In this document: positions 15,285-48,838 of the stretch, piece after piece
Layout of the letters: every line of letters begins with the position of its first letter
Position numbering within the stretch: the first letter of the stretch is position 1
Assembly: GCA_024304885.1 (NCBI GenBank)
Contig: JALJOM010000008.1
Coordinates: forward strand, 186,001-250,000
Direction: 5' to 3'
Length of the DNA: 64,000 nucleotides
Source of the DNA: Beijerinckiaceae bacterium
GTDB lineage: Bacteria; Pseudomonadota; Alphaproteobacteria; Rhizobiales; Beijerinckiaceae
Made by a program: the position numbers and the translations under genes
The notes under the pieces: generated by a model
Told to the model about the DNA's origin: nothing
What the model saw: the letters and a program-made list of their open reading frames with translations, nothing else
Database searches by the model: none

Positions 15285-16872
15285 TCTTGAAATAATTGCG
15301 TAGCGCGAGGCCGATGAAAAAGACGCAGATGATGGAAAAGAGGTTCTGGCCTACGGCGAGCAATTGATAGCCCTCCGGTGGAATGACGGGTGGCGAGCAC
15401 GTCCCCGCGGGGCAAAAGAGATACTTCTCGAGTTCGGCGTCGATGGTGAGAGGTCCCACGAAGGGCACGGCGTTGCCGAGCGCGAGCATCCGAATCGCAT
15501 TCTTGTATTTCTCGAGGTCGGTAGGGTTGCCTTGCGTCAAGGTTGCAAGATAGCGCGAGGAAAAGAAAAAGTAGCTCGCAATAAGCCAAGCTACGGGGCG
15601 CACGACGCTGCGTCCGTAATCGGCGAGTGCCCAATATCCCCACATGACGAAAATCCAGCCGATTTGCGCGGCCAGACGACCTATTGCGATGGAGCTGGTA
15701 GGCAACTCACCGAGCGCTGCGAGCGCTTTGTTGCGCCACTTGGAAGTCGTGGTCTGCTGCTGCCTTTCGATGTCCTCGAGCGTCTTCCTGAACAGAACCG
15801 GACCTTGATCCAGCGCCCCTAAAAGACGATCGAGATGGACGCCGCGCTCGGCCTTGCGTTCCTCGATGTAGAGGTCGCGTTCGAGATCGTGGTTCTTCGT
15901 CTCCTCCGCGACTTTTCGAAGGGCGCGCAGCCGAATGAGGATGCGGCTGTCGGTGGTCCAATGAAGGAGCTTGCCGGGTGGCGCGAAACCAACCTTGGCA
16001 CCGGTGAAGTCGATCCGGGCAAGGCTGGTCGAGGCTTCGAAGCTGGGTGGTGAAAAGAAGTGCGCAAGTGTGAAATTCGCCGGGCGCTCGAAGGACCGGC
16101 CATCGAAAACGGCAATTTCCTCGAAACGCGATGACCTGAACGAAATATATGAAAAGTAGTCTCGATCCGACTCGGTAGAGTCTCTAGGACTTGTGGTTCC
16201 CACCGGCTCTATGCTGTCGAATGGCCGAGCCCCGCTCTTGCCGTGAGCAACGGTCTTCCTTTCCCATGTGAGTGCGGTGAAATTGACCTCGGCTTTGAAA
16301 ACCGCCTCGTCGAAATAGATAAAATCACCGAAAGATGTGCCGATAAAGCTGACGTTGCCGGTAAAAAATGCGCTGTTGAATTCGGTTCCCTTCCCGAATG
16401 TCGCACGGTCGAAGCATATGTAGCCTCTGCAATTTATGTTGTTGAAGTGTCCTCCGTCACCGAACCGGGTACGCTTGAAGTATGTCACTTCATGAAATTC
16501 TGCGCTCTCGAAGTAGGTCTCGTGCCCAAAGCAAGCGTCGGTGAAATCTGCACGATGCCCAAAGCAGGTCCGGGCAAAGTTGGCCCAATTTCCGAATGAT
16601 GCGCCATAAAAGCGAGCACGAGTACTCGACCACCTGCATCGAGAAAAATCAGCAAGGTCACCAAAATCGAAACCCGAGAAATCGATTTGGTCCCCTGGCG
16701 GTTGGGCAAAGTCTACTCCGGTGAAAGTGACACGAACGTCTTTGTTGGTAGGGTCGCGCCGCCACGCGTTCCAGGCGTCCTTGCCTTTCGCCGCGAGCTC
16801 GAGGAAGAACTGTTGATCGTATCTCGTCGGTTCACTGTCTGGGTCGGTATCGGGTGGGCTACTTGCTGACAT
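15277..16872 (-). CDS. Pentapeptide-repeat protein with C-terminal membrane domain
   Basis: 531 residues. Residues about 45-290 are degenerate pentapeptide-like repeats built around F at the central position (DFSGFDFGDLADFSRC, ARFYGASFGNWANFARTCFG), predicting a right-handed beta-helix. A charged linker follows, then hydrophobic segments (SIAIGRLAAQIGWIFVMWGYW; WLIASYFFFSSRYL; LFSIICVFFIGLALRN). The ending GLALRNYFKIK is like that of pentapeptide proteins fused to ion-channel-like domains, though no K+ filter is seen. The gene is clearly AT-richer than mnm/par, suggesting transfer. Function unknown. Confidence 0.8.
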   Translation of the reverse strand: MSASSPPDTDPDSEPTRYDQQFFLELAAKGKDAWNAWRRDPTNKDVRVTFTGVDFAQPPGDQIDFSGFDFGDLADFSRCRWSSTRARFYGASFGNWANFARTCFGHRADFTDACFGHETYFESAEFHEVTYFKRTRFGDGGHFNNINCRGYICFDRATFGKGTEFNSAFFTGNVSFIGTSFGDFIYFDEAVFKAEVNFTALTWERKTVAHGKSGARPFDSIEPVGTTSPRDSTESDRDYFSYISFRSSRFEEIAVFDGRSFERPANFTLAHFFSPPSFEASTSLARIDFTGAKVGFAPPGKLLHWTTDSRILIRLRALRKVAEETKNHDLERDLYIEERKAERGVHLDRLLGALDQGPVLFRKTLEDIERQQQTTTSKWRNKALAALGELPTSSIAIGRLAAQIGWIFVMWGYWALADYGRSVVRPVAWLIASYFFFSSRYLATLTQGNPTDLEKYKNAIRMLALGNAVPFVGPLTIDAELEKYLFCPAGTCSPPVIPPEGYQLLAVGQNLFSIICVFFIGLALRNYFKIK

Positions 16873-16976
16873 TGCTCAATCCAGCCCACGGCAAGCCACA
16901 ATAATCGCGTTCTCTCGACAAGCGGCGTAGCATGTGCGCGCCAACGGTTCGCGCCTCCCTGCGTGCGGCCGACCGT

Positions 16977-18104
16977 TCAGGCGAGGAAGCCGGCGAAATG
17001 CGCCGCCTTCACCTTCTTGCCGGCAACGGCGCGGCCGACCTCGCGCAGCGCGCCGATCGCGGAGACTGCCGCGAGATCGGAAACCGCGGCGGGGTCGATG
17101 TGGCCGCAGCCGAGGCTTTCGAGCGCCGATTTCGTCAGCTCGGTATTGTAGCGCAGGTAGGTGAAGCGCTTCTGCGCCACGAGGCCGGTCGCGCCGATCA
17201 TGTCACCGAGCTCGAGGTCGATCGGGTCGCCGGCGAGGCATTTGCCGAACGTCCGGCAGAGCACGTCCTGCTCGGCTTGCGCTGCATTCATGAGCGCGGC
17301 CGGGATGTGGCTCGCATTGTAGAGGAGATGCATGTCGGAGGCACGCAAGGCCGCATCGGCGATCGGCGTCGTTCCGGTGCCGACCGACACCACGAGCATG
17401 TCCTTCTCCCCGGTCGCCCACCCACGTTGCCCCTCGGGCGCGAGCGGCCAATAGCGATCGAGCGTCGCCATGAGCACCATCTGGAAGGCGGGGTCGTTGT
17501 AGACGGTCATGCCGCCATCGACGAAAAGGTGCACCTTGTCGCCGATCTTGATCGCCTCGGGCGGGAAGTAGGTGGGTGCCGCCGTGCTCGCGCGCACCAA
17601 TTGCCACAGCGGAATATCGAGGTTGCACTCCTTGCCGGGGCAATTGTACTTGGCGAAAGGATTGTTGGAGAGCGGCCAGGGCGAATCCGTCGTCGCGTTG
17701 CGTAGCACGAGCAGCAGCAAGGTGCGCAGCTTGTCGGAGCCGAGCGTCGTATCGGCACCGAAGACGCTCTGCAGCTCGAGCGCGAGCGGCTCGCTCTTGA
17801 AGTTGGCATAGGCTCGGGCGAGCAGCCATTCCCGCTCGAACATCTTCGGGCCGGACCTCACGTAGAAATCCACGATCTCGGCCACGGATTTTCCGTAGGC
17901 GAGCCCCGCGGCGATGATCCCGCCCGTGCTGGTGCCGGCGAAATAGTCGAAGTCGTCGGCGAGCACATAGCCCGGCCGGTCCTTGGCGAACAGCTTCTCG
18001 ATTTCGGCCAGGATCTCGAGGGCGAGGACGCCTCGGATCCCGCCTCCGTCGATGGCGAGGAGCTTCTTCGGCCCTTTCGACAGAATTCGTTTCTGTAAGG
18101 ACAT
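16977..18104 (-). CDS. Patatin-like phospholipase
   Basis: Serine lipid hydrolase with a Ser-Asp dyad. Oxyanion loop DGGGIRG near the N-terminus, nucleophile elbow GTSTG (Ser59 from this start), and catalytic Asp in the VDGG motif; the length of about 375 fits bacterial patatins of the CapV/FabD-like type. I prefer the second of two nearby Met codons because GGGGAT lies 8 nt before it; the first is at 18110. It is divergent from the TIR-STAND-WD40 gene with fewer than 90 bp between starts, so the two are likely co-regulated. Patatins are common membrane-degrading effectors in antiphage modules. No CD-NTase gene is present nearby. Confidence 0.9.
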   Translation of the reverse strand: MSLQKRILSKGPKKLLAIDGGGIRGVLALEILAEIEKLFAKDRPGYVLADDFDYFAGTSTGGIIAAGLAYGKSVAEIVDFYVRSGPKMFEREWLLARAYANFKSEPLALELQSVFGADTTLGSDKLRTLLLLVLRNATTDSPWPLSNNPFAKYNCPGKECNLDIPLWQLVRASTAAPTYFPPEAIKIGDKVHLFVDGGMTVYNDPAFQMVLMATLDRYWPLAPEGQRGWATGEKDMLVVSVGTGTTPIADAALRASDMHLLYNASHIPAALMNAAQAEQDVLCRTFGKCLAGDPIDLELGDMIGATGLVAQKRFTYLRYNTELTKSALESLGCGHIDPAAVSDLAAVSAIGALREVGRAVAGKKVKAAHFAGFLA

Positions 18105-45436: not shown

Positions 45437-46603
45437 TCAAGTGAGGAGGCCGCCTGCGACCGGCGAGAGGGGGCTCCGCGACAGCGCCGCGCCGTCGGCG
45501 CCGTCGAGCGTCACGCCACCCGTGAAGGCGCGCCACAAGCCCTCGACGAAGGCCGGCTCCATGTCCTTCAGGATGAAGACGATGCGCGTCGAATGGTCGC
45601 TGTCGGGCCAGGCGTCGAGCCGCGCCGGCGGATGAAAGACATGCTGCACCCCGTGGAGGACGACGGGGCGCGAAAGATCGTCGGCGAGCGCCACGATGCC
45701 CTTGACGCGCAGGAGGCTGGGACCGTGCGCGCCGCGCAGGAGCTCGAGAAACACGTCGAAGCTCGCCGGCGCGATCGGCGCGGCATGGCGCAGGCAAAAG
45801 GCGCGGATTCGTGCATCGTGGCGATTTCTGTCGTGTGCGGCATGGGGGCCATGGTCGTGGTGATGGTGCCCGTCGTCTGAGGCATAGGCGTCGGCGCCGA
45901 GCCAGCGGGCGACGTCGGGAGCCTTGCGGGACGGATCGTAGAGACCGGCCGACAGCAAGGCGGCGGCCGTCGCCTCGCCGCGCGCGGCATCGAGCCGGGG
46001 CGCGCCGGGATTGAGCCGCGCGAGCCGGGAGAGGAGCTCAGCGAGCGCCTGCCCCGCGGCGGGATCGAGCAGGTCGGTCTTGGTGAGCACGAGCCGGTCG
46101 GCGACCGCGGCCTGCTTCACCGCCTCCTCGTGCGCGTCGAGGGTCGCGGCCCCGTTCACGGCATCCACCACCGTGATCACGCCGTCGAGGCGAAACCGCA
46201 GCACGAGATAGGGATGATACATGATCGTATGCAGGACCGGCGCGGGATCGGCGAGGCCCGTCGTCTCGATGATCACCCGTCGGAACGGTCGCATCCGGCC
46301 ATTGTCGCGCCGGCGCAGCACGTCCTCCAGCGTGCTGACGAGGTCGCCCCGGATCGTGCAGCAGAGGCACCCCGAGGTCATGACCAGCATGTCCCCGTCG
46401 ACGTTCTCGACAAGGAGATGATCGAGGCCGATCTCGCCGAACTCGTTGACGAGGACGAGGCAATCGGCGAGCTCGGGATCGCGTAGAAGCCGGTTCAGGA
46501 GGCTCGTCTTGCCGGCGCCAAGGAAGCCGGTGAGGATTGTGAGGGGGAAGGGCGGGGGCGGGCGCCTCGCCGGCGCGCGCGTTGCGGCTTCGTCCTCGGT
46601 CAT
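45437..46603 (-). CDS. CobW/COG0523-family GTPase, metallochaperone
   Basis: G3E GTPase. P-loop GFLGAGKT (26-33), zinc-binding GCLCC (C78, C80, C81), LTKTDL G4 motif, and a His-rich insert (GHHHHDHG) before the C-terminal CobW_C domain. Such proteins move zinc or other metals to client enzymes under limitation. Start MTEDEAATRA follows AGGGGAAG. The 5' end (about 85 bp) is duplicated about 1.1 kb upstream, flanking an AT-richer insert. No Zur-box is obvious. Confidence 0.9.
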   Translation of the reverse strand: MTEDEAATRAPARRPPPPFPLTILTGFLGAGKTSLLNRLLRDPELADCLVLVNEFGEIGLDHLLVENVDGDMLVMTSGCLCCTIRGDLVSTLEDVLRRRDNGRMRPFRRVIIETTGLADPAPVLHTIMYHPYLVLRFRLDGVITVVDAVNGAATLDAHEEAVKQAAVADRLVLTKTDLLDPAAGQALAELLSRLARLNPGAPRLDAARGEATAAALLSAGLYDPSRKAPDVARWLGADAYASDDGHHHHDHGPHAAHDRNRHDARIRAFCLRHAAPIAPASFDVFLELLRGAHGPSLLRVKGIVALADDLSRPVVLHGVQHVFHPPARLDAWPDSDHSTRIVFILKDMEPAFVEGLWRAFTGGVTLDGADGAALSRSPLSPVAGGLLT

Positions 46604-46668
46604 AGCTTCCCCTGTCGCCGTTCGATCACGCCGCGGCAGGCTCGGACCATCTCGTCCGTTCTGCCGGC
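46583..46668. repeat. Direct repeat, left copy (cobW 5' end and leader)
   Basis: Covers the first codons of cobW and its upstream leader (TGCGGCTTCGTCCTCGGTCA, then GTCGCCGTTCGATCACGCCG). Repeated in the same orientation at 47670-47758 at roughly 80% identity. The repeats bracket the zincin-like gene. Confidence 0.8.
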
Positions 46669-46862
46669 GACTGGCGGTCTCCCGGTGACTTCGATGTTCG
46701 CTGACTTATATGAGTCCGTGTCGACGGGCGCATTGGTGAACGACCGCGTGTGCCAGAACACCTATACCTTGTCGAGCAAGTCGCATCGAGCGGCATCATT
46801 TTCCTGGTAACGGCTTATCTGTGGGCTGTCCACTGGTGAATGTCGGATGAGGAGACCAAAAC

Positions 46863-47387
46863 ATGCCGACTCGAAACCTTACGCCAGGAGAGCGGAAGAT
46901 CTTGAAATTCGTTTTCGGCGACACCTTAGTTCATAATACAAAAATAACGACAAACGACAGAAATGTGGGCGGCGCAAATAATAGTATAACTTATTCAGAT
47001 ATCCCTCATTATTCTAATCAAATTTGGTGTCCGGATTTCAGTGATCCGAATACCGACACGTGGACGTTTGTCCACGAGTTCGGGCACGTGTGGCAGCATA
47101 AATATTTCAAGTCACCAATTAGTGGGTGGCTCGAAAATGTAATGAGGCATCCATTGAATTACAGCCATGCTTACTGGTACGATCTTATGAAGTCGGATGA
47201 TTTTTATGATTATAATATCGAGCAACAGGCCTCTATAGTCGCCGATTATTGGGCGGTCAGCGTATCTTATAAATCCCAATTTTGCAGGTTTCCGAAGGAT
47301 CCGCAACCATCGGATTATTATGATTTTATTTCAGAGGTTCAGAATCCTTCTGGCCCCTCGAAAAAGAAATATATTCCTCCATTCTGA
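46863..47387 (+). CDS. Putative zincin-type metallopeptidase domain protein
   Basis: 174 residues with an HEFGH zinc-ligand motif (71-75) in WTFVHEFGHVWQHK, like the HExxH-VWQ motif of vgr-related/DUF4157-like peptidase domains that accompany secretion-associated proteins. The N-terminal LTPGERKILKFVFGD also fits that group. No signal peptide or membrane segment. GAGGAG lies 8 nt before the ATG. Strongly AT-rich with rare codons for this genome, so recently acquired. Substrate unknown; a toxin or effector is possible but unproven. Confidence 0.65.
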   Translation: MPTRNLTPGERKILKFVFGDTLVHNTKITTNDRNVGGANNSITYSDIPHYSNQIWCPDFSDPNTDTWTFVHEFGHVWQHKYFKSPISGWLENVMRHPLNYSHAYWYDLMKSDDFYDYNIEQQASIVADYWAVSVSYKSQFCRFPKDPQPSDYYDFISEVQNPSGPSKKKYIPPF

Positions 47388-47581: not shown

Positions 47582-47669
47582 GTGGTCACGCTCTTTCCGG
47601 TTCTTTAGATCGTAGAGCCGTCTTGTCTCGAACATCGTGAGCCGCGCAATCGAGATTTGCCGCGCTCTT

Positions 47670-47758
47670 TGCGGCTTCGTCCTCGGTCATAATCGTTCGC
47701 CGTCGCCGTTCTATCACGCCGCGGCAGTCTTGGACCACGTCCGGTCCACCCTGCCAGC
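47670..47758. repeat. Direct repeat, right copy with a truncated cobW start
   Basis: On the minus strand it encodes MTEDEAAKSA, nearly the cobW N-terminus MTEDEAATRA, then diverges. It is a dead duplicate of the cobW 5' end plus leader; no GTPase motif follows. Confidence 0.8.
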
Positions 47759-47761
47759 TAC

Positions 47762-47830
47762 GACGGTTTCCGATCCGTCGCATTCGGAAACACGCTCTAC
47801 ACTCTTGTTCGATAGCATTTTGTATCGATT
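47762..47830. repeat. Family B intergenic repeat, partial
   Basis: Holds ACGGTTTCCGATCC ... TTCGGAAAC and GCTCTACACTCTTGTTCGATAGC, the first half of family B; the terminal half is missing. Adjoins the right direct repeat. Confidence 0.6.
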
Positions 47831-48013: not shown

Positions 48014-48838
48014 ATGTCAGGGCCGCTGGAAATCTTCTTTTCCTATGCTCATGAGGAAGAAGACCTCATGAACGACGTACGACGCCAGCTAGTTGTCTTT
48101 GAGCGTAATGGCCAAATCTTAAAATGGCATGACCGAATGATTCCACTAGGTACGGAATGGCGTGAACAGATCGACGCGAGGTTGGAGTATGCGCAAATCG
48201 TTCTCCTTTTCATGAGTCCCCACTTCATCGATTCGCGTTATTGCTATGAGGTAGAAGGTCAGGCAGCATTGCGACGGCATCATAGCGGCGAAGCGTGTGT
48301 CGTTCCGATCGTTTTGCGGCCATGCGCATGGGAGGCCACGCCTTTCGGTGCGTTGCAGTCGCTGCCTACCGGTGCGAAACCTATTAGCCGGTGGGAAGAT
48401 CGGGACGAAGCGTGTCTCGCCGTTGCCAGGGCAGTGATGACAGTTGTTGACGAGCTAGCCGTTCGGCCCAGCGCCCGGCAAGAATTGCAGCCCGAAAATG
48501 CGGTTTTCAAAGCACCATATAAAGCCATCCAAAAAAACGACTTAACCGCCGCTAAGTTCGTCTATTGCCAAAGATGCGGTCACGCCGCAGGGAAAAAGAG
48601 CGTCTGCACAGGTATATACGTTCAACATGATTTTACCTCTGGGCATGTGAATGACTACTGTAGACGTTGTGGCGTCCGTCCGGGCACAAAGTCTACTTGC
48701 GTTGGCGTATATACAAACCACGAATTCGCAAATAGTGGCTCTGGATTTGTCATTTGTTCTCGGTGCGGGATTGGCTCGGGTGAAAGGAGTACTTGCACTG
48801 GAGTTTACATCGATCACTCGTTTATCGAGATGTTATGA
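48014..48838 (+). CDS. TIR domain protein with three C-terminal Cys3His repeats
   Basis: 274 residues. TIR domain (1-145; IFFSYAHEEE, LKWHDRMIPLG, SRYCYEVEGQA with candidate catalytic Glu81). After a linker come three tandem units with spacing C-x2-C-x9-C-x6-H starting at residue 185 (YCQRCG, YCRRCG, ICSRCG, each followed by S-x-C-x-G-x-Y and H-x-F), predicted zinc-binding. No signal peptide. Codon use is more AT-rich than the chromosome. TIR domains commonly consume NAD+; the repeats may sense or bind RNA, DNA or protein. A defence function is inferred. The ribosome site is weak. Confidence 0.85.
   Translation: MSGPLEIFFSYAHEEEDLMNDVRRQLVVFERNGQILKWHDRMIPLGTEWREQIDARLEYAQIVLLFMSPHFIDSRYCYEVEGQAALRRHHSGEACVVPIVLRPCAWEATPFGALQSLPTGAKPISRWEDRDEACLAVARAVMTVVDELAVRPSARQELQPENAVFKAPYKAIQKNDLTAAKFVYCQRCGHAAGKKSVCTGIYVQHDFTSGHVNDYCRRCGVRPGTKSTCVGVYTNHEFANSGSGFVICSRCGIGSGERSTCTGVYIDHSFIEML

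Follow-up and report, generated by a model that had tools for sequence, protein, structure and literature searches.

A putative zinc-binding module in tandem copies behind the TIR domain of a ThsB-type protein

A single gene in a 64,000-nucleotide stretch of a Beijerinckiaceae genome (C8:186001-250000, the whole of which we call the window) encodes a TIR domain followed by three small cysteine-containing units, and it raises the question of what such units do on a TIR protein. The gene product combines a TIR domain of known family with three copies of one motif in a tail that lies outside the ThsB model, and the same motif is found once and twice in two other proteins. The explanation that we prefer, at a probability of roughly 45%, is that the protein may be a stand-alone TIR enzyme which is switched on by its zinc-type tail and aborts infection.

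Gene layout and the ThsB-type TIR domain

The features of the locus are as follows.

46863..47387, + strand: zincin-like gene of the 'vgr related protein' kind, 174 aa, with an HEFGH motif (context only)
48014..48838, + strand: gene of the TIR and three-unit protein (P0001), 274 aa, ATG start, third-position GC 0.52
48029..48460, + strand: ThsB-type TIR domain, aa 6-149 (Pfam TIR_2 aa 7-116; PADLOC PDLC00420 aa 6-149)
48254-48256, + strand: candidate catalytic Glu81 of P0001, invariant in 14 aligned TIRs
48461..48565, + strand: linker from the TIR domain to unit 1, conserved little with the Dehalococcoidia homologue
48566..48634, + strand: unit 1, CQRCGHAAGKKSVCTGIYVQHDF, a match to the motif pattern
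48659..48727, + strand: unit 2, CRRCGVRPGTKSTCVGVYTNHEF, a match to the motif pattern
48755..48823, + strand: unit 3, CSRCGIGSGERSTCTGVYIDHSF, a match to the motif pattern

The open reading frame, the TIR_2 match and the equal spacing of the three units confirmed the original prediction of a TIR domain fused to three tandem C-x2-C-x9-C-x6-H units. The last third of the protein consists of these units, each of the form C-x2-C-G-x3-G-x2-S-x-C-x-G-x-Y-x2-H-x-F, and the S-x-C-x-G-x-Y and H-x-F landmarks that had been described were present in all three (48566-48634, 48659-48727 and 48755-48823). The tail as a whole (aa 151-274) is basic, with 15 Lys/Arg against 9 Asp/Glu.

The identity of the N-terminal part as a TIR domain was equally clear: TIR_2 scored 54.6 bits, over its curated cut-off of 28, and the PADLOC ThsB model PDLC00420 matched at 1.3e-48 over aa 6-149. 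This alignment, to profile positions 3-146 of 319, links the protein to ThsB of the Thoeris system and also marks how it differs, since the C-terminal half of the model is missing and zinc-type units stand in its place. Among PDB sequences the TIR domain matched the solved TIRs 7uxr (4.6e-5), Cat1 (9mud, 2.1e-4) and AbTIR (8g83, 0.082), but these matches extend no further than about residue 102 and leave out the cysteine-rich tail. A weak TIR match was also obtained with the TIR-like N-terminal domain of FxsC (NCBIfam NF040588; 19.9 bits against a cut-off of 130).

Two lines of evidence on the catalytic residue disagree. Glu81, in a YC-x3-E motif, never varies among the 14 TIRs chosen for alignment while position 79 does, but the HMMER alignments place E79 (7uxr) or V80 (9mud), not E81, opposite the glutamate of the solved TIRs. 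Some glutamate in the short E79-E81 stretch is therefore probably catalytic, with E81 only a candidate. The branch leading to the window TIR is long (1.57-1.61 changes per column in the tree described below), so that its activity could have drifted, and we counted this against the preferred explanation.

TIR matches at E<=1e-5 were found in 18 of 298 genomes of the same bacterial family, its own included, and at E<=1e-10 in 37 of 72,556 plasmid records, from which 13 regions were read; the best relatives share 48% identity over the TIR. Tails were compared in 24 proteins lacking the unit (18 from the family search and six from plasmids). An RSSNLR-type C-terminal domain, whole or cut, was present in 11 and another domain of similar size in four, and each of the remainder had a short basic tail, a long ATPase-like part or no tail. 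Relatives closest in TIR sequence mostly carry another C-terminal domain, and TIRs of one type are found joined to C-terminal regions of very different sorts, one of them a tiny repeated module. Three RSSNLR proteins (L005, L074 and L077) matched PDLC00420 nearly end to end, L077 over positions 1-318, whereas on P0001 and its Dehalococcoidia homologue P0002 the model covered only about 150 N-terminal residues.

One of these relatives lies in a locus of separate interest. On plasmid NZ_CP054605.1 (L074, 2780-4957) the full-length ThsB-type TIR gene is directly preceded by a helix-turn-helix gene and one for a reverse transcriptase; the reverse transcriptase matched PADLOC retron RT_VI at 1.7e-84, and the locus is possibly a retron-TIR unit.

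The repeated unit and its other carriers

A degenerate DNA pattern of the unit had three matches in the 64-kb window, all in this gene, and none in 100 dinucleotide shuffles, which rejects a chance origin; six-frame translation of the window revealed no further C-x2-C-x9-C-x6-H outside P0001. The units had been called near-identical, and this proved too strong: any two share 52-57% of their 23 residues and 48-57% of their nucleotides. Third codon positions of unit pairs are just 26-39% identical, by which recent tandem duplication was rejected. Each pair has 12 or 13 residues in common, and the codons differ at 8 to 10 of these. Because third positions have diverged and shared residues use different codons, the units are, judged by their sequences, old repeats maintained by selection on the protein and not fresh copies. 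The C-C-C-H unit is probably a zinc-binding module. AlphaFold models made without an alignment were unusable (pLDDT 34.5 and 34.7), which we counted against the preferred explanation.

The original prediction had placed the unit outside any nameable zinc-finger family, and library searches agreed. No Pfam or NCBIfam model reached its cut-off on the units or the tail; the best Pfam match of the tail, and the nearest approach to a well-described zinc ribbon family, was Zn_ribbon_RRN7 (E 0.0011, 19.0 against 27.1 bits), confined to the CxxCG half. PDB sequences gave at best E 0.49 over the unit region, to the miniaturized rubredoxin METP (5sbg), and the best PADLOC match of the tail was at E 0.65, in a library without cut-offs. 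What Zn_ribbon_RRN7, Phage_zn_bind_8 and METP have in common with the unit is one CxxCG knuckle, whereas its second half, C-x-G-x-Y-x2-H-x-F, lies outside the matched stretches. On this evidence the unit is a so far unnamed module on a ThsB-type TIR, the TIR part itself being of an already-known family. In the PHROGs library, also without cut-offs, the tail (window 48542-48835) was weakly matched by phrog_10322 at E 0.0015 and by phrog_13161 at E 0.004.

The genome_contigs set (84,980 species genomes) was scanned with a strict unit pattern in which all three Cys, the His, Phe and Tyr, and the glycines are obligatory. The scan returned two further stretches, both real proteins. The first (L060, P0002), from a Dehalococcoidia MAG, has 197 aa, a TIR of the same type as the window protein and one unit, and is 41% identical to P0001 over 207 aligned positions; the architecture of TIR plus unit is thus common to a distant homologue. 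The second (L061, P0003), from an Omnitrophota MAG, has 243 aa, an N-domain of another kind and two units. Counting units in homologues, as had been proposed, therefore gave one and two, compared with three in the window protein.

Whether the Cys and His are conserved in homologues, on which the original prediction had been staked, received a partial answer: no carrier lacks them, but the search pattern demands those very residues, and since the carriers were recognised by their motif, this conservation counts as independent evidence only in part. Independent support comes from features that the pattern does not demand, namely the Arg of CxRCG, kept in all six units, the C-terminal position of the unit in all three proteins, and the tandem arrangement in the Omnitrophota protein. 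The strongest is that one of only two pattern matches was again a ThsB-type TIR. Moreover, a profile built from the window's three units alone and run against 2,255 ORFs retrieved P0003 (Omnitrophota, 1.6e-15) and P0002 (Dehalococcoidia, 7.3e-8), the next match being a chance segment (L040) at 0.0028.

The unit is also scarce. A six-unit profile (E<=1e-4), which includes the very proteins that it retrieves, found the own genome alone in a sample of its phylum (1 of 349), two genomes in the phylum of the Dehalococcoidia protein (2 of 251) and only the carrier's own genome in that protein's class (1 of 393, genomes partly shared with the phylum sample), although in many genomes of these three samples first-look candidates were scored only in part. 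In the phylum of the Omnitrophota protein it likewise found that carrier's genome alone (1 of 237). The second match in the Dehalococcoidia protein's phylum (L068, E 2e-5) is without the unit's His and Phe and was dropped as a carrier. When the own phylum was searched with the tail, 12 of 398 genomes had matches (E<=0.01); the 11 matches apart from the own locus were rejected, seven for in-frame stops and four for having no unit. Altogether the module looks portable, C-terminal and very rare.

Tblastn of the tail yielded no match in 72,556 plasmid records or 50,697 phage records. Seven scans of viral_contigs contained no full unit: the five pattern scans produced 19, 0, 4, 2 and 4 stretches, none with the full motif, and the two protein scans produced the chance segment L040 and a TIR fragment without a unit (L108). 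Some of the stretches set aside are real-looking proteins with only part of the motif, namely L055 (a 92-aa frame that has CxxCG and H-x-F with no G-x-Y), L042 and L054 (251-aa frame) and L126 (185-aa frame). A viral origin of the module thus found no support in viral_contigs.

These searches bear on one account of the tail, that a known phage-type zinc finger (Phage_zn_bind_8 or a PHROG family) was captured and serves as an ordinary nucleic-acid binder. Phage_zn_bind_8 was indeed the sole Pfam family to appear when the six units were searched singly (one of six, E 0.11), and phrog_10322 matched all three carrier proteins weakly (E 0.0053 to 0.11), in addition to the window tail. We nevertheless regard this account as quite improbable, as Phage_zn_bind_8 scores 9.9 bits on the Omnitrophota protein, far short of its cut-off of 24, no relative was found in the 50,697 phage records, and the seven viral_contigs scans gave no full unit.

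The units could alternatively be structural, oligomerising or anchoring the TIR protein with no ligand sensing, so that activation would come from elsewhere. TIR enzymes act as assemblies. Their assembly, the Cat1 filament entries among the PDB matches, and the small size, repetition and varying copy number (one to three) of the units all suit such a role, while the conserved Arg, Tyr and Phe could serve either role; we consider a purely structural function unlikely.

Genomic context and candidate partners

The TIR gene had been placed in an AT-richer island, and the island is real: GC is 0.51-0.52 at 47-49 kb, compared with 0.60-0.73 in the other 1-kb steps of the window, one excepted. The exception is a second dip at 16001-17000 (GC 0.547). 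Third-position GC is 0.52 in the TIR gene and 0.45 in the zincin-like gene, compared with 0.86-0.88 in three flanking genes. The zincin-like gene (46863-47387) shares the island; it matched six plasmid records, some annotated 'vgr related protein' or 'type IV secretion protein Rhs', and had no match in NCBIfam. The 5′ end of cobW is present as a diverged direct repeat of ~112 bp (79%) at 46574-46683 and 47661-47772, and the latter copy, inside the island, suggests insertion beside a duplicated stretch. In seven genus relatives both flanks were matched; the two were either located on separate contigs or had 31 kb or more between them.

The TIR gene is flanked by a cobW gene on the opposite strand and by flavoprotein and pterin-related genes. 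The cobW family includes metal chaperones. This upstream neighbour and the Cys-rich nature of the units would fit a metal or redox switch, in which the TIR enzyme is governed not by a phage ligand but by the CCCH units losing their zinc or having their thiols oxidised. The cobW gene, however, is encoded on the opposite strand and does not belong to the AT-richer island, and by reading no metal-handling gene adjoins the carrier at the Dehalococcoidia or the Omnitrophota locus, so that we hold this switch to be a long shot.

A further possibility is that the protein acts as ThsB does, producing cyclic ADP-ribose as a signal to an effector, of the ThsA type or another, that is encoded elsewhere, with the zinc modules only its sensor part. 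In its favour, the best PADLOC match is ThsB, and the own genome encodes two SIR2_2 proteins, which we regard as candidate NAD-linked defence genes (L115, C8:3560-3991; L116, C3:912140-912613); a distant effector is therefore possible, and other types of ThsA are conceivable. These two genes (C8:3560 and C3:912140) are far from the window, however, and unlike in the Thoeris system no ThsA was seen near the three carrier loci. Nor was a SIR2-type neighbour found, either among nine window proteins searched with Pfam or on inspection of the L060 and L061 loci. A STALD-type ThsA gave no match in the own genome at E<=1, which is no strong negative because all 14 control genomes likewise stayed below the cut-off. 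Taken together, we judge a ThsB-like signalling role distinctly unlikely. Pfam detected no defence partner among the nine window proteins, and none was seen by reading on the contig of the Dehalococcoidia carrier.

A proposed mode of action and its possible extension

In the explanation that we prefer, a ThsB-type TIR protein would have been acquired horizontally and would carry, instead of the usual C-terminal domain, a small module of the CCCH zinc-knuckle type, present three times here and once in the distant homologue. The TIR domain would be an NAD+-consuming (or NAD+-cyclising) enzyme and the putative zinc modules its sensing or clustering part. Our guess is that the modules would bind a repetitive infection-associated ligand, either nucleic acid or a phage protein, for which a basic and repeated tail is suited. 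Binding would gather the TIR domains and switch on NAD+ consumption, which would in turn abort infection, and no partner would be needed.

For this explanation we counted the TIR assignment, the absence of the ThsB-model tail, the architecture of the Dehalococcoidia protein, the AbiEi neighbourhood of the Omnitrophota one, the codon divergence of the units, the matches of the window-unit profile, the basic tail, the invariant E81 and the lack of a STALD match. Against it stand the placement of E79 or V80 opposite the glutamate of solved TIRs, the non-defence neighbours in the window and on the L060 contig, the distant SIR2_2 proteins and the motif-biased Cys/His evidence.

The manner in which bacterial TIR proteins detect infection is known for only a few of them, and one precedent also counted in favour of our explanation. 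In staphylococcal Thoeris the TIR protein ThsB1 is reported to sense the phage capsid (major head protein) directly, TIR recognition of infection not having been known before that study, and so sets an example of a TIR protein as phage sensor (PMC11312562). In the accessible text of the open-licence PMC papers we found no fusion of a TIR or Thoeris protein with a zinc module; the excerpts of two that mention zinc ribbons and TIRs (PMC7159879, PMC3537659) describe none. An infection-sensing role, if real, would make the module an immune sensor domain of very small size, usable as a ligand bait.

A phylogeny gave the two TIR carriers no firm relationship. In a tree of 27 TIR rows, from which the long-branch L020 and L022 had been left out of 29, P0001 and P0002 grouped, without resolution inside the group, with a TIR from a Calothrix plasmid (support 82/76); a clade of the two was not rejected (p-AU 0.459) and was present in 30% of 200 bootstrap trees.

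More broadly, the portable CCCH zinc module might be a sensing tail of bacterial TIR, perhaps TIR-like, immune enzymes, which replaces the C-terminal domain and whose copy number (1, 2 or 3) tunes avidity for a repetitive phage molecule. We put this forward as a somewhat doubtful extension, and the Omnitrophota protein is where it reaches beyond recognised TIRs. Residues 1-157 of that protein matched no Pfam TIR model and no TIR among its PDB matches. Plasmid relatives of this N-domain occur in Halorubrum (35%) and Rhodococcus (31-32%), and the three have in common a WN-x2-EAG motif that resembles the TIR glutamate region; the Halorubrum relative is a stand-alone gene of 164 aa adjoining two annotated TIR proteins. 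By these resemblances the N-domain may be a TIR relative. Downstream of P0003 are AbiEi (PADLOC 1.2e-49) and, by reading, AbiEii-like, SMC-like ATPase, DUF262-like and large methylase-like genes. On the Halorubrum plasmid pHLAC01 (L117, 2986-3480), the relative of the N-domain sits between the TIR genes and a gene annotated 'adenylate/guanylate cyclase domain protein'.
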